A DNA stretch of 32,838 nt from positions 1-32,838 of the forward strand of contig JANTGJ010000024.1 in assembly GCA_024762975.1 (NCBI GenBank), read 5' to 3'. The notes below the pieces were generated by a model. That model did no database searches, was not told where the DNA came from, and worked only from the letters and a program-made list of their open reading frames with translations. Of the stretch, positions 659 to 32,791 are shown in pieces; position 1 is the stretch's first letter, and the number at the start of each line of letters is the position of its first letter. This DNA comes from Candidatus Krumholzibacteriia bacterium. GTDB lineage: Bacteria; Krumholzibacteriota; Krumholzibacteriia; LZORAL124-64-63. The position numbers and the translations under genes are program-made.

Positions 659-1330
659 ATGAGAAAGACAACAAGACTCGATGCTCGATTTGCCATCCTG
701 GTGTTGACGATTTCCATCTGCGTCCCCGCCCTGGCCTCGGAGACGCTGCTCTTCGAGGACTTCGATGACGGTGTGGCCGATTTTTTCGCACCCACGGATC
801 CCACCTGGCAGGTCGAGAACGGAATGTACCGATGTGACCTGACCGGAGTGGACCGGTTCTCACTGGCCCGGGCAGGCGACTACCAATGGACCGACTATGT
901 CGTGGAATGCGATGTCCGGGTCGAAGGCAGCCTGAACAACGTGCTGGCTTTTCGAATCCGGGATGACTGGGACTTCTATGATATCAACATCATCGCCGCA
1001 CCCTTCAACGCCGTCGTTCTTAGCAAGCGTATCGATAACTCCGACGTCTGGCACGTCGCGGTGCCGTACGACAACGTGGTCGGCGACTGGCATCACATCC
1101 GCGTGGCAGTCGTGGACGATGTGATCGATGTGTCGATCGACGGCAGGAGCGTGATCAACCATCGCGACTCCCTGAACCCCTACCGGACCGGCGGCATCGC
1201 GCCGGTCGGCTATTGTGGAAACGCGATCAATTTCCAGACCGCCTGGTTCGACAACGTAGTCGTCTACACCATCGAGCCGATTGCTACGGATCAGGACAGC
1301 TGGGACGGTGTGAAGGCCCTTTTTCGCTGA
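659..1330 (+). CDS. Secreted LamG/DUF1080-like protein with C-terminal SWDGVKALFR tail
   Basis: The 223-residue protein starts with a clear signal peptide (basic MRKTTRLDAR, hydrophobic core, likely cleavage after ALA-26). The rest looks like one concanavalin-type jelly-roll. It opens with LLFEDFDDGVADFF and ends with NFQTAWFDNVVVY, the pattern of LamG / DUF1080 (3-keto-disaccharide hydrolase-like) domains that bind or process glycans. No catalytic residues can be assigned, so glycan binding is only a family-level guess. After the domain a short linker leads to SWDGVKALFR at the very C-terminus, nearly identical to the end of the unrelated secreted protein at 7457-8065. A GAGGAG ribosome-binding site lies about 8 bases upstream of the ATG. 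It has its own promoter and is followed by a hairpin, so it is probably monocistronic. Confidence 0.85.
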   Translation: MRKTTRLDARFAILVLTISICVPALASETLLFEDFDDGVADFFAPTDPTWQVENGMYRCDLTGVDRFSLARAGDYQWTDYVVECDVRVEGSLNNVLAFRIRDDWDFYDINIIAAPFNAVVLSKRIDNSDVWHVAVPYDNVVGDWHHIRVAVVDDVIDVSIDGRSVINHRDSLNPYRTGGIAPVGYCGNAINFQTAWFDNVVVYTIEPIATDQDSWDGVKALFR

Positions 1331-6657: not shown

Positions 6658-7338
6658 ATGGATCTACGCCGCCTGTTCGTAACCGAGTCACCATTCTACC
6701 GGGGAGCCTTTTTTCTCACTCTGGGAGCCCTGACCATGGTGCTGGGCGCCCTGCTCAGCGCAGCACATCGACTCGAGTGGTGGGAAACCGGTCTGCTCCA
6801 TGGCTACCTGCCCTATTCGCTCTGGACCGGCTCGCTGGTGCTCCTGGCTATCGGTTTCCTGTGGATCGGCAATGCACCTGATTTTTCCCGAGTTGCCCTG
6901 TTGGTATCGCTGCTGCACCTGGCCCAGGCCCTGAACATTTTGATCATCGTCGCAACCAACGGCCACTCCCCGGTCCCACAGGATTCCCTGACGATGGGCC
7001 GCCTGGCATCGTTGCTCATTTTCATTCTCGCGGACCGGGCCTGGGTTGCGCGGGGAACCCGAGTGATCCTGGCGTCGGTCGCGCTGTTGCAGATCGCCAA
7101 GGTCAATCTGCGAGCATTGGAAGTCCTGCCCTCAGAGGAAACTACCGGAATGCTGGCATTGGATACCGCGTTGATCGTGTGGATGGCCGGTGGCTTTTTC
7201 CTGCTTGCCCAATCACTCCTCGCCGGCGAACACCGCTGGGAATTGGCAAAGAATCCCGAGGAAGCGATCGGTTTGGCGGATTTCAACAATCCCGAGCATC
7301 CGTGGAACAAAGCGGAGCAAAAAAAAGAACCGGTTTAG
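6658..7338 (+). CDS. Polytopic membrane protein of unknown function
   Basis: I do not recognise this protein. From ATG at 6658 it has 226 residues with about six hydrophobic segments (around 15-36, 49-70, 78-101, 111-128, 136-155 and 165-190) and a charged, cytoplasmic-looking tail rich in N, P, E and K. It contains no cysteine clusters, nucleotide-binding motif or known catalytic motif. The fold could be a small transporter-like or YhhN-like bundle, but nothing decides this. Start choice: ATGs at 6592 and 6529 are also in frame. 6658 is preferred because the residues before it are not hydrophobic or conserved-looking and a promoter candidate ends near 6603. The only GGAGGG lies about 19 bases upstream of 6658, so the start is uncertain. 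Confidence 0.65.
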   Translation: MDLRRLFVTESPFYRGAFFLTLGALTMVLGALLSAAHRLEWWETGLLHGYLPYSLWTGSLVLLAIGFLWIGNAPDFSRVALLVSLLHLAQALNILIIVATNGHSPVPQDSLTMGRLASLLIFILADRAWVARGTRVILASVALLQIAKVNLRALEVLPSEETTGMLALDTALIVWMAGGFFLLAQSLLAGEHRWELAKNPEEAIGLADFNNPEHPWNKAEQKKEPV

Positions 7339-7347
7339 CCTGCTTAC

Positions 7348-7377
7348 TTGCTTTTTTCTATACTTTTTTGCTATAAT
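7348..7377 (+). promoter_or_regulatory. Strong promoter with consensus TATAAT for the second tailed secreted protein
   Basis: TTGCTT, an 18-base spacer and a perfect TATAAT, embedded in an AT-rich island that carries two runs of six Ts. Transcription would start near 7384, about 73 bases before the ATG at 7457. This is the best -10 box in the window. Confidence 0.65.
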
Positions 7378-7456
7378 AATATCTTCAACGCTTTGGCTAC
7401 GGAGGGGCGGAATGCCCCTCGCTTCCCGATCGATCGTCCTGCAGGAGTACCATACG

Positions 7457-8065
7457 ATGAACCGCCGCATCTTGATCACCATGCTCGGTCTTGCCCTGAT
7501 TTCCTTCCCGCTGGCGCTCCCGGCCACCGCCGAAGTCCACACTGGCGTCAACGTCCTGGGATTGGCCACAACACCCGATGCCGATGGCAGTTTCGAATGG
7601 GTCGACCAGCCATTGGGCGATTTCGAGGTACACCTTCTGGTCTACGGGTACGACGCCGTTGCCGGCATTGCCGGGTGGGAATGCCGCGTGCTACTCCCGG
7701 CGGGGGTTCTGGTACGAGAGGTGACTCTCGTCGGCAAACCCGATCCGATCAGCGCCAGCGCGACCGATCTCAGCCTGCGTGCGTTTCCGCTCATCCCCCT
7801 GCTGCCCTCCGGGGGCGTAGTTCATCTGGCCACGCTGCATCTGACGCTCACCGACGGGGACAGCGAGAAGGAATTTCGGCTGGCACCGCATTCGACACCC
7901 GAAGTACCGGGCCGTATGAGTTTCGCTCGGGAGACGTCGGGGGCCAACTTGATCGAGTTCAAATGGCCGGGGGGGTGTGAGGACTGCCCGGTGTTTCGGA
8001 TTGTTCCTTCGGCGCAGCCCGTGATTGCCGCCTCCTGGGATGGTGTCAAGAGCCTCTATCGATAG
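7457..8065 (+). CDS. Small secreted protein with C-terminal SWDGVKSLYR tail
   Basis: From the ATG at 7457 (AGGAG 9 bases upstream) the protein has 202 residues. The ORF start at 7190 runs through the upstream gene and the promoter and is rejected. Residues 1-25 form a signal peptide (MNRR, hydrophobic core, cleavage likely after ATA-25). The body is beta-rich and resembles cohesin-like surface modules in pattern (VHLLVYGYD, IAGWECRVLLPAG), but I cannot assign a family. A CEDC pair lies near the end. The last ten residues, SWDGVKSLYR, match those of the secreted LamG-like protein at 659-1330 in eight of ten positions, though the two proteins are otherwise unrelated. It has its own strong promoter and ends 26 bases from the convergent fpr gene. 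Confidence 0.82.
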   Translation: MNRRILITMLGLALISFPLALPATAEVHTGVNVLGLATTPDADGSFEWVDQPLGDFEVHLLVYGYDAVAGIAGWECRVLLPAGVLVREVTLVGKPDPISASATDLSLRAFPLIPLLPSGGVVHLATLHLTLTDGDSEKEFRLAPHSTPEVPGRMSFARETSGANLIEFKWPGGCEDCPVFRIVPSAQPVIAASWDGVKSLYR

Positions 8066-17741: not shown

Positions 17742-20700
17742 TCACTTGGCCAGGACCATCTTGGCCGTCTGAGCCGAACGTCCATCGCTCATGCGCGCGA
17801 AGTAGATTCCCGCCGCGGCGGAGCGGCCCTGATCGTCCCGTCCCTTCCAGATCGCGGTATGGGTTCCCGCCTCCACCGTTTCGTCCACCAGAGTCCGGAC
17901 CCGACGGCCGCGGAGATCGAAGATTTCGAGCCGGATATTCCCGGTCCTGGGTACGTCATAGGAGATCCGCGCCAACGGGTTGAACGGATTGGGGGTCACA
18001 TCCCGGATCGCCAGCGTCCGCGGCAACGAGTCCTCCACCGGCGAGGAGCCGCCGCCCTGGGTCCAGACCGGCGCGGTGAACCCGCTGCTGTGGCCGTCCA
18101 CATCGACGGCTACGACGACGTAGTAGCTGTCCTGGGGGGGCGTATCGTCCCAGGTCGTCGTCGGCGGCACGACGCTGCCGACCATCTTGTTCGCCGTCGG
18201 CACAAAGACATCGGCGGTATCGCGATAGACCACGTAGTGATCCAGGTCCGGCGCCGCACTGGCCGTCCACGAGAAGCGATACTGCCCCGCACCCAGGGAT
18301 ACCACCGAGGCGTCCTGCAGCACCGGCGGCGCCACGAAATCCGCATCCGGACCACCGTGGAACCCGATATCCGCCCGGGAGCCATCCGGGTCCAGGCAGC
18401 CGGGATCGTCGATTCCGCGATCCAGACAAGGGGAGTGGACGGCCAGCCCCAGATCACCTCCGGTCAGATCAACCAGCAGCGGATCGACGCTGATGTCCCC
18501 CGGTCCCATGGTCGTGGAGACAAAGTCGCCACCCGCGTTGCTCCAGGCGTCATTGCAGTCGCTCACGGCTCCGGTCCCGGCGCACATCAGGCCCCCACCG
18601 ACATTCGAGACGATGATATTGTTGCGCGCGGTCAGCGCACCGCCGGAGATCATGGCCAAACCGCCGGCCATCGAGCCGCTGTTGGAATCGACCAGACAAT
18701 TCTCGACCGTACCGTTGATATTCATCCCATACAGTCCGCCGCCGAGGTTGGTCGCCGAGTTGCCCACCAGGCGGGTGTTGCGCACCTGTACCGACGCCAG
18801 CGAAGCGAAGACCGCTCCGCCATTGCCCCCCCGGGCGGTGTTGTTCTCCAGTGTGCAATGCACCAGTTCGAGCGTGCCGCCGTCGATACTCAGCGCTCCA
18901 CCTGCGTTCTGGGACCGGTTGCCGCGGATCTCCACGCCGTCCATGCTGACCGTCGCATTCGACGCCCACAACGCTCCGCCGACTCCCGAGCCTCCATTGT
19001 CGACCAGGGATCCACCGACCAGATGGATACTGGCATCTTGCACCATCAATCCGGCGCCGGTAAAACTCGGGAGACTGTCCGAACAGGCATTGCCGGTGAA
19101 CGCACAATTCTCCAGAGTCGCCGCCGCGCCCTCGAGAACGGCCACGGCTCCACCGTTGCTGGCGATATTTCCGGTAAACTCGCAGTCGATGACCCGGGGC
19201 TCGCCACCGAGGAGGCAGAGAGCACCGCCGTATCCGGTAGCAACAGCCGGGTCGGCGCGATTGTTCAGGAACCGGCAGTTGCTGATCGTCGGCGAGCAGT
19301 CACTCGTGTAGATCGCCCCGCCATGATAGCCGGGAACCGGGTTGGAATAATTCGCTCCCACACAGTCCTCGAAAACAAAACCGTCGACGCCACCGATGTC
19401 ACCGCAGCCGGCCAGAAAGCGCAGGCCTCCGTTGCCCGAGCTCAGGCGCGTCGGATACAGATCGGTATCGCGTACGGAGAAGTCGTCGTTCCAACCGCCG
19501 AACAGGCGTACCGGATCGGTCACCGCGATCGCGCCGGCGTAATCTCCCCCGGCGACGTAGACCGAGTCGGTACCGGTACAGGCAACCAGGGCGTCGGCGA
19601 TCGAGTGCGCAGCAGTGGCCGGAGTCTCGTAGGGAGCCGTGTTGCTGCCCAGGGTCGATACGTAGCGAATCTTGTGCCCGACGATCTGGATCCGGTGCTT
19701 CGCGAAATCGTAACCATCCACCGTGCCGGTGCTCGGGAAGACCACCAGGCTGGCGTAGTCGGTGCCTTCGTTGGGAACGAAGAAATCGTAGCTGCCCGAA
19801 TTGGGCACGTTCTCGGCGATCACGAGATCGTGGCAGGCGCCGTCGATTCCCATCCAGATATCCACCGTGGGTGCTGCGGCCCCGGCACTCGTCCAGTTCA
19901 AGGTAACCGTTTCATCGCCGAGCAGGGGGTCCAGACCGAAAGCCGAGTCGATATCGATTTCGACGGGCGGCGGTGTGTAATACATCTGCGTAACGCTGAT
20001 ACCGACATTGCCGGCGCCATACTGAACCATCGCATAGCCGCTCTCACCGAAGCCCGAGCCCCAGCTGTTCTTGATGATCCACGCACCGTTGCCACTGCAG
20101 GCGCGATCATCATAGCCGACGATCAACACCAGATGGTTGGTCCCGTACCCCGGAAGGTTGTAGCAACCCCCGCCGTAATTCTCGAACTCGGGGCTGGCAT
20201 CGATGGCCGTGCAGATCGGCCCCACCTGCAGCGCCTGTTTCATCTGTTCGACATTGTTGGAAATCGACCGGTAGCCCGTGATATGGGCGTAGTCGAAATA
20301 GTTGTCCTCTTCACAGGGAGCGATCGGCGGGTCCGCGCTCAGGTAGGGATGGCAATTTTCCAGCACCCCACCATAGTTCTGCCAGATGTAGTAGGAGGCC
20401 ACGGCCCAGCCGCCGTCGCAACCGGCACCGTAGGGATTGCACGAGATCGACTGCTGCTCCGACAGGTTCACCTCGACTCCGTAGTAGATCTTGATGAAGG
20501 CTTCCATCTCGGCGGTGGCGGCAAAGGCCCAGCATGAACCACAGCTACCCTGGTTCTTGACCGGGGTGATGCCATCGACGTCGCGCCAGTCCAGACTCGT
20601 CGGCAGCGCCTTCTCGACCGGAAGAATCTCCAGGTGGGCCTCCCATTCGCTTTCCCACCCCGCCGGCGGCTTGTACCCCCGCAAATTGTCGCGTTCCTCC

Positions 20701-20900
20701 TGCGTGCGCGTCAGGATGAAGGTGTCGTCCACGTCGAAAGTCCAACCTTCGGTTTTCGCGCGCTCGCGCAATTCGTCCAGCGTCGGACCGTCATAGGCCC
20801 AGGCCGAGCCGGCTACCAGAGTCAGCGCCAGGAGCGCAAGCAGGAACAATCGCGGGGTCCGGAACACCGAACCGCCACCATGGCGTGGATGACTTTGCAT
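17742..20900 (-). CDS. Secreted papain-family (C1A) protease with beta-helix, FN3 and FlgD-type sorting domain
   Basis: The ORF opens at 21062, but the ATG at 20900 (AAAGG upstream) gives a normal signal peptide (cleavage after AWA-35) and a 1052-residue protein. A short propeptide leads to the C1A domain from about residue 99 (LPTSLDWRDV). All catalytic parts are present: Q117 and C123 in NQGSCGSCWAF, H256 in TNHLVLIVGYD and N278 in IIKNSWGSGFG. An Ig-like linker domain follows (about 310-410). Then comes a right-handed beta-helix with Pmp-like GGA/GGAL repeats (about 470-850) and an FN3 domain (858-950). The C-terminal FlgD-Ig domain (971-1052, NPFNP, IFDLRGRRVRTL, GIYFARM, ending KMVLAK) is a type often used for outer-membrane sorting. 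It is probably a surface-displayed or released cysteine protease with an adhesive stalk, divergent from the lipoprotein gene. Confidence 0.92.
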   Translation of the reverse strand: MQSHPRHGGGSVFRTPRLFLLALLALTLVAGSAWAYDGPTLDELRERAKTEGWTFDVDDTFILTRTQEERDNLRGYKPPAGWESEWEAHLEILPVEKALPTSLDWRDVDGITPVKNQGSCGSCWAFAATAEMEAFIKIYYGVEVNLSEQQSISCNPYGAGCDGGWAVASYYIWQNYGGVLENCHPYLSADPPIAPCEEDNYFDYAHITGYRSISNNVEQMKQALQVGPICTAIDASPEFENYGGGCYNLPGYGTNHLVLIVGYDDRACSGNGAWIIKNSWGSGFGESGYAMVQYGAGNVGISVTQMYYTPPPVEIDIDSAFGLDPLLGDETVTLNWTSAGAAAPTVDIWMGIDGACHDLVIAENVPNSGSYDFFVPNEGTDYASLVVFPSTGTVDGYDFAKHRIQIVGHKIRYVSTLGSNTAPYETPATAAHSIADALVACTGTDSVYVAGGDYAGAIAVTDPVRLFGGWNDDFSVRDTDLYPTRLSSGNGGLRFLAGCGDIGGVDGFVFEDCVGANYSNPVPGYHGGAIYTSDCSPTISNCRFLNNRADPAVATGYGGALCLLGGEPRVIDCEFTGNIASNGGAVAVLEGAAATLENCAFTGNACSDSLPSFTGAGLMVQDASIHLVGGSLVDNGGSGVGGALWASNATVSMDGVEIRGNRSQNAGGALSIDGGTLELVHCTLENNTARGGNGGAVFASLASVQVRNTRLVGNSATNLGGGLYGMNINGTVENCLVDSNSGSMAGGLAMISGGALTARNNIIVSNVGGGLMCAGTGAVSDCNDAWSNAGGDFVSTTMGPGDISVDPLLVDLTGGDLGLAVHSPCLDRGIDDPGCLDPDGSRADIGFHGGPDADFVAPPVLQDASVVSLGAGQYRFSWTASAAPDLDHYVVYRDTADVFVPTANKMVGSVVPPTTTWDDTPPQDSYYVVVAVDVDGHSSGFTAPVWTQGGGSSPVEDSLPRTLAIRDVTPNPFNPLARISYDVPRTGNIRLEIFDLRGRRVRTLVDETVEAGTHTAIWKGRDDQGRSAAAGIYFARMSDGRSAQTAKMVLAK

Positions 20901-21004
20901 GAATTGCCTTTCCCGAAAATATGGGTGTCTCGGAGGGTGATCGTGCCGACGACAGCGGTTCTCGAATTCAGGCCCGCGCGGGCTTTCCCGATGCGCCAGC
21001 ACTA

Positions 21005-21033
21005 ATGATACCAGAACCAGCCCGGAAACACAA
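21005..21033 (-). promoter_or_regulatory. Possible promoter for the secreted protease gene
   Basis: On the minus strand, TTGTGT, a 17-base spacer and TATCAT. It lies about 105 bases before the ATG at 20900 and inside the rejected N-terminal extension of the ORF. The -10 match is good and the -35 match is weak. Confidence 0.33.
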
Positions 21034-21075
21034 CGAAACATCGTTTTCATCAAAACCGACAATGCAAATTGGGTC

Positions 21076-21153: not shown

Positions 21154-23673
21154 ATGCCAAGGAACCAACGGGTACTCGCCAGTACCTCGCTCCTGCTACT
21201 GTTTGCCGGAGCGTTTCTTTTCGTCGGTTGTTCCGATGACAATCCGGTCGAAGTCGGTCCGGGGACGAACTTCTCCAACACGGTGGTTATCCATACGGAT
21301 CCCGACGACCTCAATGTGGCTTGGTCGCTGGCCGCTCCCGGTGGGGCCACGATTGCCTCGCAGGGCGATGCGACCCTCGAGAACATGGCCGCGGGCGAGT
21401 ATACGATCAGCTGGCTTCCGAGGGACGGGTGGATCACACCGCGCCCCAATCCGGTGACATTGTCGCTGGGATCGGTCAAGCAGATCGACTTCTCCGGTTT
21501 CTACTTCCCCGAACCGGGCTCGGTATTCATCAACGTGATTCCCGGCAACCTGCAAGCCGAGTGGACTCTGCTCGGTGGCGAAGTCAACTCGTCCACCGGC
21601 GAATTCGAACCGACCGAGGGAATGGAGTGGAACGGCGCCGGTGACACCACCCTCCAGGCGCTTGAACCGGGGATCTACGAGATCATCTGGCAACCGGTCG
21701 ACGGTTGGTACAATCCGGATCAGGAAGGCGATCAGCAGGGCGAGCCGTTGACCGTGCGTTTCACGATGACGATCTTCGGCTTTTCGGCGGCGCGCGAATA
21801 CCGGCAGTCACCCGGTTCGGTTTACATCGATCCGAGGCCTGGAAGCCTGGATGCCTCATGGACGCTGACCGGCAACGGCCGTCTGACCGCGACGGGGCCG
21901 ATCGAGCAGATTATCGAATACACCGGTACGGGACCGACCCTGATTGCCGACGCCTGGCCCGATACGGTGGGCGATGGCGTCTCCTCCTTCGACTACACGA
22001 TCGTCTGGGACGAGGTCAGTGGCTACACCACCCCCGCCTCGGCGGACTACGAAATGAGCCGGGGAATCACGCTGAACGTTGCCGGTGAATACGCGCAGGT
22101 GCCCGGCTCGGCGACCATCGACGCCGAACCCAACAGTCTGGACGCCCCCTGGACCCTGGTCGGTCCGGACGGGATCCAGCGCTCCGGCCTGGGTGATCTC
22201 TCGCTGAGCGACCTGGCACCGGGTGACTATACGCTGATGTGGGGTGAAGTCGTCGCCTGGAAAGCGCCGCAGAACGAGACATTGACCGTAGATCACGGCG
22301 GCAACGTGGTATTTGCCGGCACCTACGCCCCCAGCCTGGTACTGGATCCGCAGCCGGCCGGTTTCTCGGCTCCGTGGCAGATCGCCGGCCCGGGTGGATT
22401 CAGTTTGAGTGGTACCGGATCCTCGGTATTCAACGATCTGGACGCCGGTTCGTATACGGTGACCTGGAACGAAGTCAGCGGCTGGACGGCCCCGGCAGCG
22501 GAGACCGTCACACTCGGTGCGACAGGTATCGTCGTCACTGGCGACTACCAACAAAACGCGATGACACTCTTCGTTCGACCCGAACCGGCCGGACTGGGTG
22601 CGCCCTGGACCATCACCGGGCCGAACGGGTTCAGCGAATCCGGCACGGGGCAGGGTACCGTCGAGGTAACGGACCCCGGTGTCTACACACTGGCCTGGGA
22701 GACTCTGGTCGGCTGGACCCCGCCGGGTCCGACCCTGGCACCTCTGGCTGCCGGGGAAACGATCACTTTCCAGGCCCGCTATCTGGAGACTTTCGACATG
22801 GTCCCCGTATCCGCCGGTGCGTTCGTGATGGGAACGCGCAACGAGTCCTGCTCCAGCCCGGATGAGACGGAGCATGACGTCGAATTGACCAATGACATTC
22901 TGGTACAGGCCACCGAGGTCAGCAACGGCACCTTTGCCCAGGTGTTGACCTGGGCAGTGGACCATGGCTACGCCCGCTACGAGAATGGAAAGATCTACGA
23001 TACACTGGACAACTCCACGATCATGCTGATGAACATGCAGGACCCGGGCCTGAAGATCCGGTACGAGAATGGCGCGTTCGTCTCGGACCGCGAAAACGAT
23101 CCGGTGGTCGAGATTTCCTGGTATGCGGCAGCGGCCTACTGTGACTGGCTCAGTCTCCACGGGGGAATGACCCGTGCCTACGACCATCTGAACTGGCTGT
23201 GCAATGGCTATGATCCGTACAACGCCGTTGGCTATCGCCTGCCGACGGAGGCCGAGTGGGAGTACGCCTGCCGTGCCGGCAGTGAGACCGCCTACGCGAA
23301 CACCGATATCGATGATTTCCGGGAGGACTGCTTTGTCGAAGATCCCGAATTGCTGGACAGCATCTGCTGGTTCTCGGAAAATTCCCAGTCGCAGGCACAT
23401 GAGGTAGCCTCCAAGGGCCCCAACGCCTGGGGATTGTTCGACATGCACGGCAATGTACTCGAGTGGTGCAATGATCGTTACCGCAGCAACTACTGCGGTA
23501 CGAATTGTCCGGAGGAGAATCCGGTCGGACCGTCGCAGGGCGATACGCGAGTCCAGCGCGGCGGGTATTTCTATTCCGACTTTACGAAGGTTCGCTCGGG
23601 AGCCCGCAGTGAATCGAATCCGACCAATGCGTCCGCGGTCTGCGGCTTCCGCGTGGTCATTACCGACCGGTAG
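21154..23673 (+). CDS. Lipoprotein with six 'APWTLxGPxG' repeats and a C-terminal SUMF1/FGE-like domain
   Basis: The 839-residue protein begins with a lipoprotein signal (FLFVGC, acylated C26, followed by SDDN, so probably outer-membrane sorted). Residues about 43-545 contain six tandem units of 75-100 residues. Each has a P-x-x-L-x-A-x-W-T-L/I core, a GxG-x-x-x-L turn, PGxYTxxW, a GW-x-x-P and an aromatic end. They resemble PEGA-like surface modules but I cannot give a family name. Residues about 547-839 are a formylglycine-generating-enzyme fold: MVPVSAGAFVMGT, VVEISWYAAAAYCDWL, GYRLPTEAEWEYACRAGSE, GLFDMHGNVLEWCNDRY, RVQRGGYFYSDFTKVRSGARS and CGFRVV. The two catalytic cysteines of true FGE are replaced (YFYS...KVR), so it is likely a binding or structural version. 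A strong terminator follows. Confidence 0.88.
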   Translation: MPRNQRVLASTSLLLLFAGAFLFVGCSDDNPVEVGPGTNFSNTVVIHTDPDDLNVAWSLAAPGGATIASQGDATLENMAAGEYTISWLPRDGWITPRPNPVTLSLGSVKQIDFSGFYFPEPGSVFINVIPGNLQAEWTLLGGEVNSSTGEFEPTEGMEWNGAGDTTLQALEPGIYEIIWQPVDGWYNPDQEGDQQGEPLTVRFTMTIFGFSAAREYRQSPGSVYIDPRPGSLDASWTLTGNGRLTATGPIEQIIEYTGTGPTLIADAWPDTVGDGVSSFDYTIVWDEVSGYTTPASADYEMSRGITLNVAGEYAQVPGSATIDAEPNSLDAPWTLVGPDGIQRSGLGDLSLSDLAPGDYTLMWGEVVAWKAPQNETLTVDHGGNVVFAGTYAPSLVLDPQPAGFSAPWQIAGPGGFSLSGTGSSVFNDLDAGSYTVTWNEVSGWTAPAAETVTLGATGIVVTGDYQQNAMTLFVRPEPAGLGAPWTITGPNGFSESGTGQGTVEVTDPGVYTLAWETLVGWTPPGPTLAPLAAGETITFQARYLETFDMVPVSAGAFVMGTRNESCSSPDETEHDVELTNDILVQATEVSNGTFAQVLTWAVDHGYARYENGKIYDTLDNSTIMLMNMQDPGLKIRYENGAFVSDRENDPVVEISWYAAAAYCDWLSLHGGMTRAYDHLNWLCNGYDPYNAVGYRLPTEAEWEYACRAGSETAYANTDIDDFREDCFVEDPELLDSICWFSENSQSQAHEVASKGPNAWGLFDMHGNVLEWCNDRYRSNYCGTNCPEENPVGPSQGDTRVQRGGYFYSDFTKVRSGARSESNPTNASAVCGFRVVITDR

Positions 23674-25886: not shown

Positions 25887-26261
25887 TCAGCGACTGGTGC
25901 TCCCCAGGATGGTCTGGACCGTCGATACCAGTTTCTGCGGGCTGAACGGCTTGGTGATGTAGTCATCAGCACCCGCAGCGATGCCCTCTTCGCGGTCTTC
26001 GCGAGAAGAGCGGGCCGTCAGTAACACGACCGGAATATCCGCCGTGCGGCGATCCTCCTTCAACATCCTGCAGGTCTCGATTCCGCCCTGACCGGGCATC
26101 ATCACATCCAGGATCACCAGGTCGGGCGCTTCGTCAACAGCCATGGTAAAGGCATCCTCGCCGTTGTGTGCGGCGATCACGTCGAAGCCCTCGGCGTGCA
26201 GGCTGAAGTCGAGGATGTGGCGGATGTTGTGTTCGTCGTCGGCGATCAGGACCTTCAGCAC
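25887..26261 (-). CDS. Stand-alone response-regulator receiver (REC) protein
   Basis: The 124-residue protein is a bare CheY-like receiver: acidic pocket D8-D9, phospho-acceptor D52 in LVILDVMMPGQGG, T82 in LLTA and K104 in TKPF. It has no output domain. The start is GTG with GGAGG 7 bases upstream. It follows the kinase at 26305-29004 by 43 bases, as the last gene of the operon. Such single-domain receivers relay phosphate to a histidine phosphotransfer protein, act as a phosphate sink or bind a partner. The most likely donor is the upstream kinase. Confidence 0.93.
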   Translation of the reverse strand: MLKVLIADDEHNIRHILDFSLHAEGFDVIAAHNGEDAFTMAVDEAPDLVILDVMMPGQGGIETCRMLKEDRRTADIPVVLLTARSSREDREEGIAAGADDYITKPFSPQKLVSTVQTILGSTSR

Positions 26262-26304
26262 GATGCTTCCTCCAGCGGCGATACGTTACTTTGGCACAGG
26301 TTCT

Positions 26305-29004
26305 CTAGACCGGAGCCTGTACCTGTTTCGGTTTGTAGGCGAGCGGGCGAACCCGCTCGATGCTCTGGTTCTCGCGAGCCTGCAGTTCCTCGATTCGCGT
26401 GGCCCGCGCACGGGTTTCTTCCAGGAAATGCGGTGTCAGGCGTGGACAGAATTCACGGCCCACTCCCTGTTCGATCTGCTGCAACGCCCTACTCAGACTG
26501 TGGGCCTGTCGCCAGGGTCGCCGAGCGAGCAGGGCGGCCAACGTATCGGCCAGACGGATCAGACGCGAACCCAGCGGAATCGCCTCGCCGCCCAACCCCT
26601 CGGGATAGCCGGAGCCGTCGCAGTTCTCATGGTGGTGCAGAATCAACTGACGAACCTTCGACGAGGGACGCAGCGGCGCCAGCAGATCCAAGCCTACGCT
26701 CACGTGGCGCTGCATGTCCCGGCGCTCGGAATCACTCAGTTTCCCGGCCTTGTTCAGATACTGGCGCGGTACAGCGCTGAGCCCGACGTCATAGAACTGC
26801 AAGGCGAAGGCCAGGTCCACCATCTCGTGCTCGGGAAGCCCGGCACAACGACCGGCGGCGAGGCAGATCTCCTGGCACAACGCCGCCAGGCTTTCGTGCC
26901 TCAGCTGGCCCACGGCCGTGGTGGTCCGCAAGGACGAGCGCACCTCTTTCAGGTCCTCGGTCATCTCCCGCCAGCGGTGGTGCCGATCCAGCAGTTCGGC
27001 AATGACCGGCGACAACGACTCGAGGAAGAGCCGGTCGTCATCATCCAACGAAGTGCCATCGACCTTGTTGTTCACCGAGACGACCCCGATCACCCGATTC
27101 TCATGCAACACAGGTGCGCACAGCAGGGAAGGAGTCGAGTAGCGCGGTTCGTTCACCTCGACGGAAACCGGCGCATCACGGGTGACATCGGCCAACAGCA
27201 GGGTCTTGCGCGTGGCCCAGACCTGACCGGCGAAACCGGCGCCCCGAGCCACGACGGCACCCTGGACCACGGCCTCGGGCAAACCGATCGCGGCGCGGAT
27301 GGTCAGAACGTCCCGCTCGTGGTCAGGTACCATCAGGGTCGCTGTTTGCACGCCGAGACTCTCGCTGACCCAGTACATCAGGCGTTGGACAAATTCGCCC
27401 TCAGCCAGCGCGGAGCCGGTCGGTTCACTTTCGGTCGGCTGCAACACGGCCGGCCTGCGCGGCAAGAGCACCGTGAAACGAGCACCCGTGGGCTCGAGAT
27501 TCTCGGCCCAGATCCGGCCATCATGGTGGTTGACGATGTCCTGGCAGATGGCCAGACCGACGCCCTGTCCGTTGTGCTCCCGGGTAGCTGAGCCATCGAC
27601 CTGATAGAACTCGTTGAAAATCTCGGAAAGCTGATCTTCGGGAATGCCGATGCCGGTGTCTTCGACCATCAGGCTGACTGCCGTTCCGGTCTCCTGCAGG
27701 CTGAGCGTAACCTGACCACCGGTGGGCGTGAACTTGAAGGCATTCCCCAGCAGGTGACCGATCAACTGTTTCAGCAACAGGGAATCGACGGGCAGCAGGA
27801 TCTTTTCGGCGGAGGTCAACAGGCGAAAGCGTACATCGGATCCGATGGCGCGACTGCGCCAGGATTCTTCGAGATGGCGAACGATCTGCACCAGGTCAGT
27901 CTCGACCTGCACCATCGCCGGCGGCCCGTTGCCGATGCGGTTCAGGTCCAGGATGTCGTTGATCACTGCCGTCAGTTTGTTGCTCTCGGTGTTGATCACT
28001 TTCAGGAACTCGCCGCGCGCCTCGTCGGTCATCGTTCCCATATTCTGTTGCAGCAGTTCAGTGTAGGCTGATATCGAGGTCAGGGGAGTACGCAGTTCAT
28101 GCGAGACATTGGCCACGAAATTGGCCTTCATGTCGCTCAGGCTGGCCAGCTTTTTCGAGGCATCGGAAAGCTCGGCGTTGTTGCGCGCCAGTCGTCCATA
28201 GACCAGCGAGGATTCGACCGCGGTATTGACCTGCTGGACCAGAAATTCGAGTTGCCGAATCGCCACCAGATCCGGAACGTGGCCGTCCAGGGGATCGTCG
28301 AGGCTGAAATAGCCGTTCAGGTCGCCGGTGCGCGAGACCAGGGGGGAGATCATCAACACGTCGACGTCCCAGGGCGACCCGGGATCCAGCTGTACGGCGA
28401 CATCCTCGGCGGTATCCGCAGCTCGGACCAGGAACGAGGACGAGTAGCGCTCGCGCGAGGTATTCATCTGCTCGTATTCGTCCCGCGAGACCTGGATGCC
28501 GATCAGGTCCGCCTTGCTTTCCTCGGGAATTCCGGCGAACGCACGCGCCTCGAACGCCTGCGTACTTTCGGACCAGAGATAGAGGATCACTTTCCGGAAA
28601 CCACCGATGCTCTCGACGGCGGCCGTGACCTGCTCCAGCAGTTCCGCCTGATTGTGGGTCGAGTTCATGCGCGCCGAAACCGCCAGGATGCGTTCCAGCG
28701 TACGACTTCGCCGACGGAGATCCTCGGCATGGCTCCGCTCATCTTCGAGGCTCTCACGCTGCTGTCGAGAGTGCTCAAGCAGTCGCTGCAGTTCCTGCTC
28801 CAGGCCATGCTGGCGAGTCTGCGCTTCATCCAATCTGCGGCGATCGTTCGACCGGTGCACAGCCAGTCGCAAACCGAACAGGCCCACCCCCACGCCGCCC
28901 AGCAGCGCCAGCGCCAGTGTCAGCCCCAACGGGGCGGACAGCGGTCCGGCGGCATCGAGCAATGCCAGCGGCAGGATCCGTCCGATTTCGATCGCTCCGA
29001 TCAA
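26305..29004 (-). CDS. Membrane histidine kinase fused to a C-terminal HD-GYP-type domain (HD changed to YD)
   Basis: The 899-residue protein starts at TTG 29004 with GGAG 6 bases upstream, overlapping the REC stop region. Order: one membrane helix (about 24-49), coiled coil (55-105), GAF-like sensor (105-270), dimerisation domain with H302 in FVANVSHELRTPLTS, and HATPase with N421 region GHLLGNAFKFTP, G1 VEDTGIGIP and G2 GQGVGLAI. A second GAF follows (about 535-675). Last comes an HD-GYP-type domain (about 700-835): H767, LHHHEN (790-794), DGSGYP (796-801) and the late aspartate D820 are kept, but the name-giving HD is Y738-D739. The His-to-Tyr change removes a metal ligand, so phosphodiesterase activity is doubtful and a c-di-GMP sensor role is possible. 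It is one of two paralogous fusions in this operon. Confidence 0.92.
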   Translation of the reverse strand: MIGAIEIGRILPLALLDAAGPLSAPLGLTLALALLGGVGVGLFGLRLAVHRSNDRRRLDEAQTRQHGLEQELQRLLEHSRQQRESLEDERSHAEDLRRRSRTLERILAVSARMNSTHNQAELLEQVTAAVESIGGFRKVILYLWSESTQAFEARAFAGIPEESKADLIGIQVSRDEYEQMNTSRERYSSSFLVRAADTAEDVAVQLDPGSPWDVDVLMISPLVSRTGDLNGYFSLDDPLDGHVPDLVAIRQLEFLVQQVNTAVESSLVYGRLARNNAELSDASKKLASLSDMKANFVANVSHELRTPLTSISAYTELLQQNMGTMTDEARGEFLKVINTESNKLTAVINDILDLNRIGNGPPAMVQVETDLVQIVRHLEESWRSRAIGSDVRFRLLTSAEKILLPVDSLLLKQLIGHLLGNAFKFTPTGGQVTLSLQETGTAVSLMVEDTGIGIPEDQLSEIFNEFYQVDGSATREHNGQGVGLAICQDIVNHHDGRIWAENLEPTGARFTVLLPRRPAVLQPTESEPTGSALAEGEFVQRLMYWVSESLGVQTATLMVPDHERDVLTIRAAIGLPEAVVQGAVVARGAGFAGQVWATRKTLLLADVTRDAPVSVEVNEPRYSTPSLLCAPVLHENRVIGVVSVNNKVDGTSLDDDDRLFLESLSPVIAELLDRHHRWREMTEDLKEVRSSLRTTTAVGQLRHESLAALCQEICLAAGRCAGLPEHEMVDLAFALQFYDVGLSAVPRQYLNKAGKLSDSERRDMQRHVSVGLDLLAPLRPSSKVRQLILHHHENCDGSGYPEGLGGEAIPLGSRLIRLADTLAALLARRPWRQAHSLSRALQQIEQGVGREFCPRLTPHFLEETRARATRIEELQARENQSIERVRPLAYKPKQVQAPV

Positions 29005-29013
29005 TCCCTACTC

Positions 29014-29403
29014 CTACGAGGCGTTCGTCCGCGTCTCGAGCATCTTGCCCACGCGTTCGACGAGTTTGGCGATATTGAACGGCTTGCGCATGAAGAGATT
29101 CGCTCCGGCTTGCTTCATCCGGGCCCGGGTTTCTTCGTCCGCCTTGGCCGAAAGGGCTACAATCAGCGTACCGGTGTAGGCCTGGTTGCGGCGGATCAGC
29201 CGAGTCGTGTCCACCCCGTCCAGCTTGGGCATCATGATATCCATGATCACCACATTCGGCCGGAAGTTGGCCATCCGATTCATGCAGTCGATCCCGTTGT
29301 CGGCCAGCGAGACCTGGAAGCCCTCCTGCTCGAACGTCTGCGCCAGCAGCGTCGTGATGGGCTTTTCATCGTCCACGATGAGAATGCGCGGCATCCGGTT
29401 CAT
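29014..29403 (-). CDS. Stand-alone response-regulator receiver (REC) protein
   Basis: The 129-residue CheY-like protein has D11-D12, phospho-acceptor D55 in VVIMDIMMPKLDG, S85 in ALSAK and K107 in RKPF. There is no output domain. Its ATG follows the TAG of the upstream kinase directly with no intervening base, and GGAG lies 5 bases ahead inside the kinase gene, so translation is coupled. It sits between the two kinase/HD-GYP fusions, nine bases before the next one, and is probably phosphorylated by one or both. Confidence 0.93.
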   Translation of the reverse strand: MNRMPRILIVDDEKPITTLLAQTFEQEGFQVSLADNGIDCMNRMANFRPNVVIMDIMMPKLDGVDTTRLIRRNQAYTGTLIVALSAKADEETRARMKQAGANLFMRKPFNIAKLVERVGKMLETRTNAS

Positions 29404-31716
29404 CTATTCTCCACTCTTCGGTCCGGCCGCAGGGGCCGGGCGCGATACGGTGCGCTGGCCCGGATCCGAATCCGGGTCATCCGCGGACAAGATTCCATCT
29501 TCTTCGAGTACACAGCGAAACTCGTGCAGAATCGTTGCGTCGAATTGCGAACCGGAATGGGCCTGGATCTCCTCGATCGCCCGGATCGCCGGCAGACCTG
29601 CCCGGTAGGGGCGTCCCCGGGTCAGCGAGAACCAGGCATCGATGACCGCCAGGAGGCGAGACTCGAGCGGTATGTCCGTTGCGGCCAGTCCATCAGGATA
29701 TCCCGTACCATCGAATCTTTCATGATGGTGCCGAATGATCTCGAGGATCTGCGCATCCGCCAGGAGGGGTTCCATGGCTTCGACACCCTGCTCGACGTGT
29801 AGATCGATCTCGTCGCGTTCGTCGTAGCTGAGATCGGTTTCACCGAGCAGGATCTCGTCCTCGATGTGGGCCATGCCCGCGTCGTGCAAGGCGGCCGCAT
29901 GCTGCAGATGGCGAATCCGTGTCGCACTCAGACCGCATACCTCACCCAGGCGCCGGACCAGATACAGGGCCTGTGGCGTAGCCGTCGGAACTCCCGTACG
30001 GCGGATCCGCAGGAGGATACGCAACGCAGCTGTCGTGCGTTCGATCTCCCGGGCCGATTCTTCGGGCTGTGGCCCCGCACCCCAACGGTGCAGGTTGTCC
30101 AGTGCCAGGCGGCACAGTTCGGCCAGTACGGCGACCTGATCCAGATCCGCCGTATCGTAGGTCGCGTCACCATTTCGGCGGCCCAGGATCAGGGCGCCGA
30201 TCGCACGCTCCGCCTCGCCCAGTGCGGCATATACCAATTCGCCCTGTGAACCGGGTCCCAACGGATTCCAGGGAAGCCGGATGCCGTCGCCGTCGCGGCT
30301 GGTTCCTCCACGCTCCAGCAATGAGCTCCACGCCTCATCCTCCGGTACGGGTGCAGGGTAGCCGTCGCCGGCCCGCAGACTGTTGGCCGCTACAGGAATC
30401 AACTCGCCGAACCCGTTTCGCAACAGCACCGTGACGACTCGCGAGTCGGTGATCTCGGCCACGGTCTGTACCAGGGTTTGCACCAGGCGCAGAGCCGGAC
30501 CGGGAATCAGGCGAGCGCCATACTCTTCAGGCAGCGGAACCGGGAAGATCAATTGCTTGGGAACCTCGAAATTGAATTCGGTGCCGCCGCCCGGCAGGCG
30601 CTCGGCATGAATCGTGCCGTCATGCAGGTGAACGATCCGCTGGGCGATGCTCAGCCCCAATCCGCTACCTTCCTGCTCGGCGGTTTCGCCGCGGGCACGG
30701 TAGAATTCACGGAAAATACGCCGGATATCTTCCGGTGGGATGCCCGGACCGCTGTCCAGGACCCGCACGCGCAAGGATGCGGCCGCCTCTTCGATCCGAA
30801 TGCGGATCCGGCCGCCCTCGGGGGTGAACTTCACGGCATTGCCGATCAGGTTGACCAAGACCTGGCGCACCAGATCGGAATCGATCATCGCACGGGCCAG
30901 GTCCGGCTCGACCTCGACCTCACAGGTCTGACTCTTGCCCAGAATGACGGGACGCAGCGAGCGCACGACATCCGCCACCAACAGATCCAAGGCCTCGGGC
31001 GTCCGCTTGAGCAGTTGATCCTGGCTCTCGATCCGCGAGAAATCCAGGATGCGATTGACCATTCGCAGCAGGCGAGCGGACTCGGACTGGATGACCGACA
31101 GGAATTCGGCGGCCTGGGGCACCTGCTCGGCCGGCACCAGACTTCGCAGGACATCGGCATAGGCGGTGATCGAAGTCAGCGGCGTTTTCAGCTCATGGCT
31201 GGTCATGGCCGTGAAGCGGGCCTGAAGCCTGTTCAGGCGATCGAGCGCCTCATTCTCGGCCGCGACACGGCGGCTCTCCGAACGGGCGGCAACCGCTTCG
31301 GCCCAGAACGAGGCCGCACCCTCGATCACGATAGCGTACTGGTCCAGGGAATCCTGTAGCCCGGGGACCTCCGCCGGATCCACATCCAGGCCCAACCGGA
31401 CGGTCACAAAGGGACGATTGCGAACCTGCAGGGTCCGGCTCAGGTGATGCAACGTTTCCTCGCCGCCACGGGTCCACTCGCCCACGCTGGCCTGGGTACA
31501 ACGGGCCCGACCGGGATCCAGCAGACCAGCACCCTCGGCTTCGGTGATCACCGAGACGGCTTGCACATGCGGCAGATCGCGAAATCCGGCAATCGTACCG
31601 GCATCCAGATCCGCCAGGGTTGGCAGGTCGCCCGAGGCGGTCAGATGGTGCAGTGCGACGGCCACCGCGCTCTGCGGTCCAACAAACGGTTCCTGGGAAA
31701 TGCTGTGGCCGGACAT
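29404..31716 (-). CDS. Cytoplasmic histidine kinase fused to a C-terminal HD-GYP domain
   Basis: From ATG at 31716 (GGAAGG upstream, 13 bases after the GGDEF gene) the protein has 770 residues and no membrane helix. The N-terminal 150 residues are an unrecognised, perhaps GAF-like, sensor. Then H174 in FTAMTSHELKTPLTS, N-box NLIGNAVKFTPEGG, G1 DSGPGIP and G2 GSGLGLSI. A GAF-like domain lies at about 395-540. The C-terminal HD-GYP domain (about 560-735) keeps H611-D612, HHHERFDGTGYP (663-674) and D693. However, the lysine of the usual HDxGK is methionine (M615). In the family, HD-GYP domains hydrolyse c-di-GMP to pGpG or GMP. Thus a phosphorelay kinase and a c-di-GMP phosphodiesterase appear joined in one chain. 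The order differs from classical REC-HD-GYP regulators. Confidence 0.92.
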   Translation of the reverse strand: MSGHSISQEPFVGPQSAVAVALHHLTASGDLPTLADLDAGTIAGFRDLPHVQAVSVITEAEGAGLLDPGRARCTQASVGEWTRGGEETLHHLSRTLQVRNRPFVTVRLGLDVDPAEVPGLQDSLDQYAIVIEGAASFWAEAVAARSESRRVAAENEALDRLNRLQARFTAMTSHELKTPLTSITAYADVLRSLVPAEQVPQAAEFLSVIQSESARLLRMVNRILDFSRIESQDQLLKRTPEALDLLVADVVRSLRPVILGKSQTCEVEVEPDLARAMIDSDLVRQVLVNLIGNAVKFTPEGGRIRIRIEEAAASLRVRVLDSGPGIPPEDIRRIFREFYRARGETAEQEGSGLGLSIAQRIVHLHDGTIHAERLPGGGTEFNFEVPKQLIFPVPLPEEYGARLIPGPALRLVQTLVQTVAEITDSRVVTVLLRNGFGELIPVAANSLRAGDGYPAPVPEDEAWSSLLERGGTSRDGDGIRLPWNPLGPGSQGELVYAALGEAERAIGALILGRRNGDATYDTADLDQVAVLAELCRLALDNLHRWGAGPQPEESAREIERTTAALRILLRIRRTGVPTATPQALYLVRRLGEVCGLSATRIRHLQHAAALHDAGMAHIEDEILLGETDLSYDERDEIDLHVEQGVEAMEPLLADAQILEIIRHHHERFDGTGYPDGLAATDIPLESRLLAVIDAWFSLTRGRPYRAGLPAIRAIEEIQAHSGSQFDATILHEFRCVLEEDGILSADDPDSDPGQRTVSRPAPAAGPKSGE

Positions 31717-31729
31717 CGGGACCTTCCGC

Positions 31730-32722
31730 TCAGGAGGTTTCCGTCGTATCGGCGTCGTGGCCAGCCATGACGAGTTCGGACTCGCCGTTCTGGCTGCGAC
31801 GCTCCTTGACGACGACACTGCTGCTATTCGTCTTGCCGTAGCGTTTCAGCTCGGCCATCGTGTCGCTCAGCTGGGCGGGGTGCTCGAATTGACCACTGGT
31901 CTCGCTCACCATGGCGATGGTCAGGGTGATGAGGGGAAACTGCTTCAGGGTGCCGCTGCGACTCTTGACGGCCAGAAAACCCTTCTCGAAGTCCTCGGCG
32001 TCGTGCAGGTCGCCGATTCCGGCATCGAATTCCTCGATCACCTTCATCGCCAGTTTCTCCGCCAGCTCCGACGAGGTTGCCATCACGAAATCGTCTCCGC
32101 CGACGTGGCCGATGAAATCGTTCTCCGATCCGAATTTGCGCGAGCATCCGACCAGAACGCCGGCCAGGTAGGAAATCGCGCGGTCGCCGCGCGAATATCC
32201 GTAGTAGTCGTTGAAGCTCTTGAAGCGATCAATGTCGATGTACATGAAACCGAAATCGCGTCCGCTCTGGATCCGGGCCTGGATCTCGCGTTCGATTGCC
32301 CGGTTTCCGGGCAGACCTGTCAAGGGATTGGCCTCACGCTCGCGACGCGTGGCTTCCAACAGATTGGTCACCCTCAAAAGCAGTTCATCGTGATTGAACG
32401 GTTTGATCACGTAGTCGTTGGCGCCACCCTTCAGTCCGCGGACCTTGTCCTGGTCCTCTCCCTTGGCGGTCAACAGGATGACAGGCAGATTTCGGGTCTC
32501 GAACCCTTCGCGGATCACGCTCAGAACGGCATATCCGTCCATACCCGGCATCATTACGTCCAGCAGCACCAGATCCGGCTGGGCTACCGCGACCTGCTTC
32601 CAGGCCTCATCACCGTTCTCGGCCATGATGACCTCGAAACCCTCCTGTTCCAGCAGGAACTGCAGGATGCGCCGGATATGGGGCTCATCATCCGCGACCA
32701 GGATGCGTGCTTTTCCCGTCAT
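31730..32722 (-). CDS. Response regulator with GGDEF (diguanylate cyclase) output domain
   Basis: From ATG at 32722 (AAGGGAAG upstream) the protein has 330 residues; the ORF-track start at 32782 coincides with the predicted transcription start and is rejected. Residues 1-125 are a receiver with D11-D12, phospho-acceptor D55 (LVLLDVMMPGMDG), T85 and K107. The GGDEF domain (about 130-300) has NPLTGLPGN, FNDYYGYSRGD (N171, D180, guanine contacts) and HVGGDDF (208-212). GGDDF is an accepted active variant. The inhibitory RxxD site is SEND here (199-202), so product inhibition is probably lost. D180 argues against the Hypr cGAMP-making type. It heads the operon behind a sigma-54 promoter, suggesting phosphorylation-controlled c-di-GMP synthesis. 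Confidence 0.93.
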   Translation of the reverse strand: MTGKARILVADDEPHIRRILQFLLEQEGFEVIMAENGDEAWKQVAVAQPDLVLLDVMMPGMDGYAVLSVIREGFETRNLPVILLTAKGEDQDKVRGLKGGANDYVIKPFNHDELLLRVTNLLEATRREREANPLTGLPGNRAIEREIQARIQSGRDFGFMYIDIDRFKSFNDYYGYSRGDRAISYLAGVLVGCSRKFGSENDFIGHVGGDDFVMATSSELAEKLAMKVIEEFDAGIGDLHDAEDFEKGFLAVKSRSGTLKQFPLITLTIAMVSETSGQFEHPAQLSDTMAELKRYGKTNSSSVVVKERRSQNGESELVMAGHDADTTETS

Positions 32723-32791
32723 TACTTCCCTTTTCGACAATACATGGCTGCGAGTCCGCCCCGGGACAGGACGGCTGTTCATCTTATGATC

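Follow-up and report, generated by a model that had tools for sequence, protein, structure and literature searches.

A ten-residue C-terminal tail common to otherwise unrelated secreted proteins of Krumholzibacteriota, Eisenbacteria and relatives

Two secreted proteins with no other visible relationship end in almost the same ten residues, which raises the question of whether such an end is a signal and, if so, what reads it. Both are encoded in the window, that is, the whole stretch of 32,838 nucleotides analysed here, from a Candidatus Krumholzibacteriia bacterium (contig JANTGJ010000024.1). The relevant features are the following.

659-1330, + strand: tail-bearing secreted protein 1, 223 residues (open reading frame; signal peptide by heuristic)
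1298-1327, + strand: codons of its C-terminal tail SWDGVKALFR, with the stop codon TGA at 1328-1330 (read from the sequence; pattern match at 1301-1330)
7457-8065, + strand: tail-bearing secreted protein 2, 202 residues (within the open reading frame 7190-8065)
8033-8062, + strand: codons of its C-terminal tail SWDGVKSLYR, with the stop codon TAG at 8063-8065 (read from the sequence; pattern match at 8036-8065)

Distribution of the tail

An earlier note on this DNA had described the two proteins as unrelated, each with a signal peptide and a tail that stops at the final arginine, and this description holds. Each tail lies where it was first placed and ends right at the stop codon, and each protein begins with a signal-peptide-like segment, as called by a heuristic rather than by SignalP. 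In the first protein, the predicted signal peptide covers approximately residues 1-27 and is followed by a LamG/3-keto-disaccharide-hydrolase-like beta domain (residues 49-179; Pfam PF06439, 28.9 bits against a cut-off of 26.8). The start of the second was set at 7457, which gives the best signal peptide by the heuristic, and a Pfam search assigned this protein to no family. In a BLASTP comparison, the similarity between the two is confined to a single 39-residue stretch that contains the tail.

The tail is not limited to this pair. A loose DNA search pattern, W-[G/S/D..]-x-x-[VILMF]-K-x-x-[YF]-R-stop, was used with the reversed pattern as control. In the window's 3.8-Mb genome there are 17 matches, against none for the reversed pattern. 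All 16 complete reading frames among them encode proteins of approximately 140-390 residues with a signal-peptide-like start, and they end in [DE]xx[STA]W[GDS]xx[VIL]K[ASTG]x[YF]R or near it; an 18th tail, SWGDLKTYYR, escaped the pattern (locus L211). The pattern is also found in 37 of 38 relatives. Phylum-wide it matches 885 times (79 of 80 genomes positive), and in Eisenbacteria 516 times (40 of 47), with no reversed match in either. All the genomes surveyed are metagenome bins.

A scan of GTDB found at least 118 stretches with the tail, mostly from genomes named Eisenbacteria, Krumholzibacteriia or Krumholzibacteriota, or from unnamed metagenome-assembled genomes; among the matches listed, there are single cases in Coatesbacteria, Effluviviaceae, UBP1 and Cloacimonadota. 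Five of 40 Cloacimonadota genomes carry one orthologous secreted OB-fold protein with the tail WG[RK][IV]KS[IML]YR, and most have none. The remaining matches in that phylum are regarded as noise, because the reversed control also matches there three times. Chance is taken to account for the apparent tails of Rubrivivax, Acetatifactor and Planctomycetaceae, as they come without a signal peptide and without a type IX secretion system (T9SS). Judging from a SprA check and the passenger clusters, the tails seen in one Planctomycetota bin and two Kerfeldbacteria bins appear to sit on Eisenbacteria contigs that were mis-binned.

Hundreds of otherwise unrelated secreted proteins in Krumholzibacteriota, Eisenbacteria and relatives have this ten-residue tail in common. 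It is strongly enriched at the C-termini of signal-peptide proteins both in the window's genome and in related ones, as the earlier note had expected of a signal, and homology between the two window proteins was not found outside the tail. No earlier description of it was found in open-access PubMed Central papers.

Anatomy of the tail and its passengers

Across the family, the consensus is [ST]-W-G-x-[IVL]-K-[AS]-L-[YF]-R. The form first proposed from the two window proteins, SWDGVK[A/S]L[F/Y]R, therefore needs widening: the tail itself stands, but its first residue may be S, T or A and not strictly S, and D is in the minority at position 2 (the residue after W). In a logo of 157 non-redundant tails there is [TS] at -10, G at -8 (88%), I/V/L at -6, A/S at -4, L at -3 (73%) and Y at -2 (92%), and the preceding linker is enriched in P, V/T and E. 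The search pattern itself dictates W, K and R in this logo; the positions that the search left free (-10, -4 and upstream) are conserved too. Tails with one mismatch differ at -3, -4 or -10, and never at W, K or Y/F; together with R, these residues are nearly invariant. When K in the pattern was swapped for a codon not beginning with A, a single match was obtained in 78 genomes. Altered or extended ends, such as SWGAIKSMMD, STWGSIKAIYRD and SWSTIKALYE, occur beside intact paralogues. In one family of 11 members, the passenger diverges down to 28% identity, and W, G, I, K, L, Y and R are invariant.

The position is equally constrained. Of the copies of the motif within 838 kb, 138 are C-terminal and five lie elsewhere, always 1-2 residues before a stop, and the reversed motif has no match; the strictly C-terminal placement claimed at the outset is borne out. 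For the 11-member family, the AlphaFold2 model is confident in the beta passenger, most of which has a block pLDDT of about 86-91; the linker falls below 50, and a terminal helix at residues 173-186 is modelled with low confidence. The single-sequence AlphaFold2 model of a window protein has a pLDDT of 40 and is too poor for use. The tail is predicted to be a short helix after a disordered linker and, as we read its helical wheel, W, I, L and Y would lie on one face and K and R on another.

What precedes the linker varies widely. By the same heuristic, 143 of the 157 non-redundant tail proteins (91%) have a signal-peptide-like start, compared with 294 of 985 other open reading frames (30%), and BLAST sorts the 157 into 73 unrelated passenger clusters. 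Their Pfam domains include beta-helix, lamin-tail, thioester, CHRD, starch-binding, redoxin and PD40 domains, among others, and several passengers match families that have other anchors elsewhere (ExeM-GG, choice-of-anchor F, M36 and TQXA-type domains). Among 65 representative tail proteins, none of the Pfam and NCBIfam matches listed covers the tail. The passenger of the 11-member family folds like a cohesin, with 6kgd as its best match in the PDB (E 2.9e-06). Small tail proteins with this fold are encoded at loci L050, L073, L080 and others, which suggests that Eisenbacteria-type genomes display single cohesins on the cell surface.

Comparison with known export signals

The tail is very probably a C-terminal sorting signal. 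The earlier interpretation as a sorting, anchoring or processing signal is supported by its fit with the 73 passenger clusters and with the exchange of tails for type A T9SS domains described below. The earlier note had also held that the tail matches none of the known signals it named (PEP-CTERM, LPXTG, T9SS domains), and it does lack a transmembrane segment, an Ig fold and a covering Pfam or NCBIfam model. PEP-CTERM/exosortase, GlyGly-CTERM/rhombosortase, MYXO-CTERM and LPXTG/sortase signals resemble it in being short C-terminal signals on unrelated exported proteins, and some of their passenger types are the same. However, all of them continue beyond the motif with a transmembrane helix and a basic tail, whereas here the motif is followed directly by the stop codon.

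The nearest comparison is with the type A domain of T9SS cargo (TIGR04183/PF18962/PF13860). Both signals are C-terminal, sit on diverse signal-peptide cargo in the same genomes, and have a near-invariant Lys close to the terminus. Published work has shown that T9SS export depends on the final residues of type A domains and on their near-invariant Lys, and in the case of HBP35, 22 residues sufficed (PMC11285876, PMC10994853). Nevertheless, neither by profile nor by fold does the tail qualify as a type A domain. The latter is an Ig-like beta-sandwich of approximately 80 residues, while the tail has approximately 10 residues, a predicted helix and neither motif B nor motif D. Type A profiles found no C-terminal match on either window protein; among the 65 representatives, type A families are absent from the Pfam matches and from the NCBIfam matches listed (25 of 32 families). 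An Ig-like domain of approximately 80 residues before the tail was found by the type A pattern in none of the 157 proteins, and AlphaFold2 places a linker and a short helix there. Shorter T9SS signals do exist, for instance the domains of 40-55 residues in Prevotella intermedia, but these have three beta-strands and motifs B, D and E, all of which the tail lacks (PMC11969387). Type B domains (TIGR04131/CHU_C, with PorP/SprF shuttles) are a second signal class with its own shuttle and the same translocon, and thus a precedent for several signals per machine; they differ in their length of 150-235 residues and in often lying beside their shuttle gene, while the tail genes have no recurrent neighbour here.

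A classical type A signal and the tail coexist in the window's genome, as the window itself illustrates.

17742-21062, - strand: papain-family protease with a beta-helix region and a type A domain, 1106 residues
17745-17999, - strand: its type A-like T9SS C-terminal domain (FlgD_ig/Por_Secre_tail), ending ..TAKMVLAK (PF13860, 31.5 bits; TIGR04183, 23.3 bits against a cut-off of 23, residues 1022-1103)

The two signals replace one another on homologous passengers. Homologues of the window's LamG domain carry the tails SWSEVKNLFR (genome G003) and IYLDRIKTLYR (G012), the decayed tails TTLSAVRGLFH (G062) and ESLGAVKSRY (G030), or no tail (G021); in another protein of G062 (contig C240), of 637 residues, the same domain is found together with a type A domain. 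Similarly, the beta-helix proteins with the tail have homologues, also beta-helix proteins, in which a type A domain forms the C-terminus; the protease above is one of them. The tail and the type A pattern never occur on the same protein (0 of 157). Cargo size differs as well: tail cargo has 127-502 residues (median 242) and type A cargo 361-1603 (median 622; n = 17 with signal peptide). The ends are alike, K-[AS]-L-[YF]-R in the tail and K-M-x-L-[LVI]-[KR] in type A domains of these phyla, so that L-x-[KR] is terminal in both, with the Lys at -5 and -6, respectively. Only 3.6% of 112 other secreted open reading frames end in [LIM]-x-[KR].

The outer-membrane machinery for type A domains is present where the tail is. 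SprA was detected in all 78 genomes searched from the phylum, above the cut-off in 71, and in none of 14 controls. It is also found in tail-bearing genomes of Eisenbacteria, Coatesbacteria, Effluviviaceae, UBP1 and Cloacimonadota (in G084, a Cloacimonadota genome, as a weak fragment only), and it is absent from the genomes with chance matches. The PorV family (7-18 copies per genome) and full-length PorU occur in all tail-bearing genomes tested and have the same distribution as SprA; in the window's genome their genes adjoin (G000:C5:37692-42167). This outer-membrane module of the T9SS was not known to the earlier note. Profile TIGR03517 for the GldM motor (PorL/M, GldLM) had no match in any genome, controls included. 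In the T9SS reviews consulted, the window's phylum and its kin are not named as carriers.

Finer associations do not hold up. The copy number of PorV does not follow that of the tails, and the proximity of a tail gene to a PorV gene in two genomes (G010 and G019) is within chance, with approximately 0.45 pairs expected by our estimate. In three genomes a tail gene lies approximately 20 kb from sprA, but the intervening genes are ordinary housekeeping genes. In several genomes (L170, L173-L176), sprA adjoins LptF/LptG-like permease genes, rimP, nusA and infB, a conserved housekeeping neighbourhood with gene names read from the sequences.

Candidate readers of the tail

Exchange, mutual exclusion, the shared end and co-occurrence make the T9SS the best single mechanism. 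Co-occurrence alone would be weak evidence, because the T9SS is old in the FCB group, and it may only reflect common descent within that group. In our judgment, it is an evenly balanced question whether the tail is a compact substitute for the T9SS C-terminal domain that is read by the T9SS. If so, the signal peptide would direct the protein through Sec into the periplasm, where its final 9-10 residues, forming a flexibly linked amphipathic helix with a free arginine at its end, would be recognised at the outer membrane, most likely by the SprA translocon and a PorV-family shuttle of the T9SS outer-membrane module, and the protein would then be translocated, displayed on the cell surface, or both. 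The tail would stand in for the type A domain of approximately 80 residues mainly on small cargo. Against this reading, the Ig fold and motifs B and D are lacking, and the model, at low confidence, has a helix and not a strand. In addition, the tail is confined strictly to the C-terminus, whereas type A domains have been reported to tolerate residues added behind them (PMC11285876), and the Lys of the tail is shifted by one position. Finally, one genome (G037) has SprA, PorV and PorU and lacks the strict tail.

In the main rival reading, the tail is a sorting or anchoring signal served by a dedicated receptor, anchor or protease outside the T9SS, and the T9SS is an independent feature of the same phyla. 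This is possible, though we hold it somewhat doubtful. No fold is common to the tail and the T9SS domains, and what is recognised looks like a short, invariant helix whose C-terminal Arg is free. Furthermore, at six of six Cloacimonadota loci, the single tail gene is followed by a co-directional gene for a protein of 122-145 residues with one N-terminal transmembrane segment, a candidate partner (L239:9476-9844, L240:9228-9605, L241:9277-9654, L242:9696-10085, L243:9227-9664 and L052). Its conserved core is SKSLP..L..V.GE / REY[IL][DE]DFYP, and Pfam and NCBIfam searches gave no convincing match. This protein was, however, absent from the searched stretches of other phyla, which cover part of those genomes. 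Beside the tail genes of Krumholzibacteriota and Eisenbacteria, the only recurrent genes are paralogues of the tail genes and a beta-helix cluster, and no partner was found in these neighbourhoods; an M16 peptidase gene next to the first tail gene is not repeated beside others. The exchange with type A domains also speaks against a separate reader. Accepting one would mean, tentatively, that several FCB phyla have a new minimal helical tag with a free C-terminal arginine and its own receptor, as a separate route of export or display beside the T9SS.

It is improbable that the tail serves instead as a docking or assembly peptide (for instance, for a surface scaffold or partner, with the cargo already outside) or as a tag recognised by a periplasmic protease. 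Such a role would be in keeping with an amphipathic helix at the end of a flexible linker, the cohesin fold of one large passenger family indicates that some cargo is probably part of a protein assembly, and extra residues almost never follow the tail, as would suit proteases that read the C-terminus; against this stand the number of unrelated passengers and the replacement of type A export domains by the tail on homologous ones. Chance resemblance or hidden homology, conceivable with only two examples in the window, has a negligible probability given 1401 matches against none for the reversed control in 127 genomes, 73 passenger clusters and no alignment outside the tail stretch.

The tail makes the minimal T9SS signal a directly testable question. 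If the T9SS does read it, the known minimal signal falls from about 40 to about 10 residues, the Ig fold is dispensable, and the tail is a very small export tag; if not, the tail points to a sorting route that has yet to be described. In both cases, several hundred proteins of scarcely annotated uncultured phyla become predictable as secreted or surface-located.

Two further regions of the window can be described. At 21154-23673 (+ strand) a probable lipoprotein is encoded, in which small beta domains are repeated and the C-terminal domain resembles the formylglycine-generating enzyme; Pfam and NCBIfam relate it to GldK/GldJ-type proteins. Positions 25887-32782 (- strand) encode tandem response regulators and sensor histidine kinases, as judged from the translated open reading frames.
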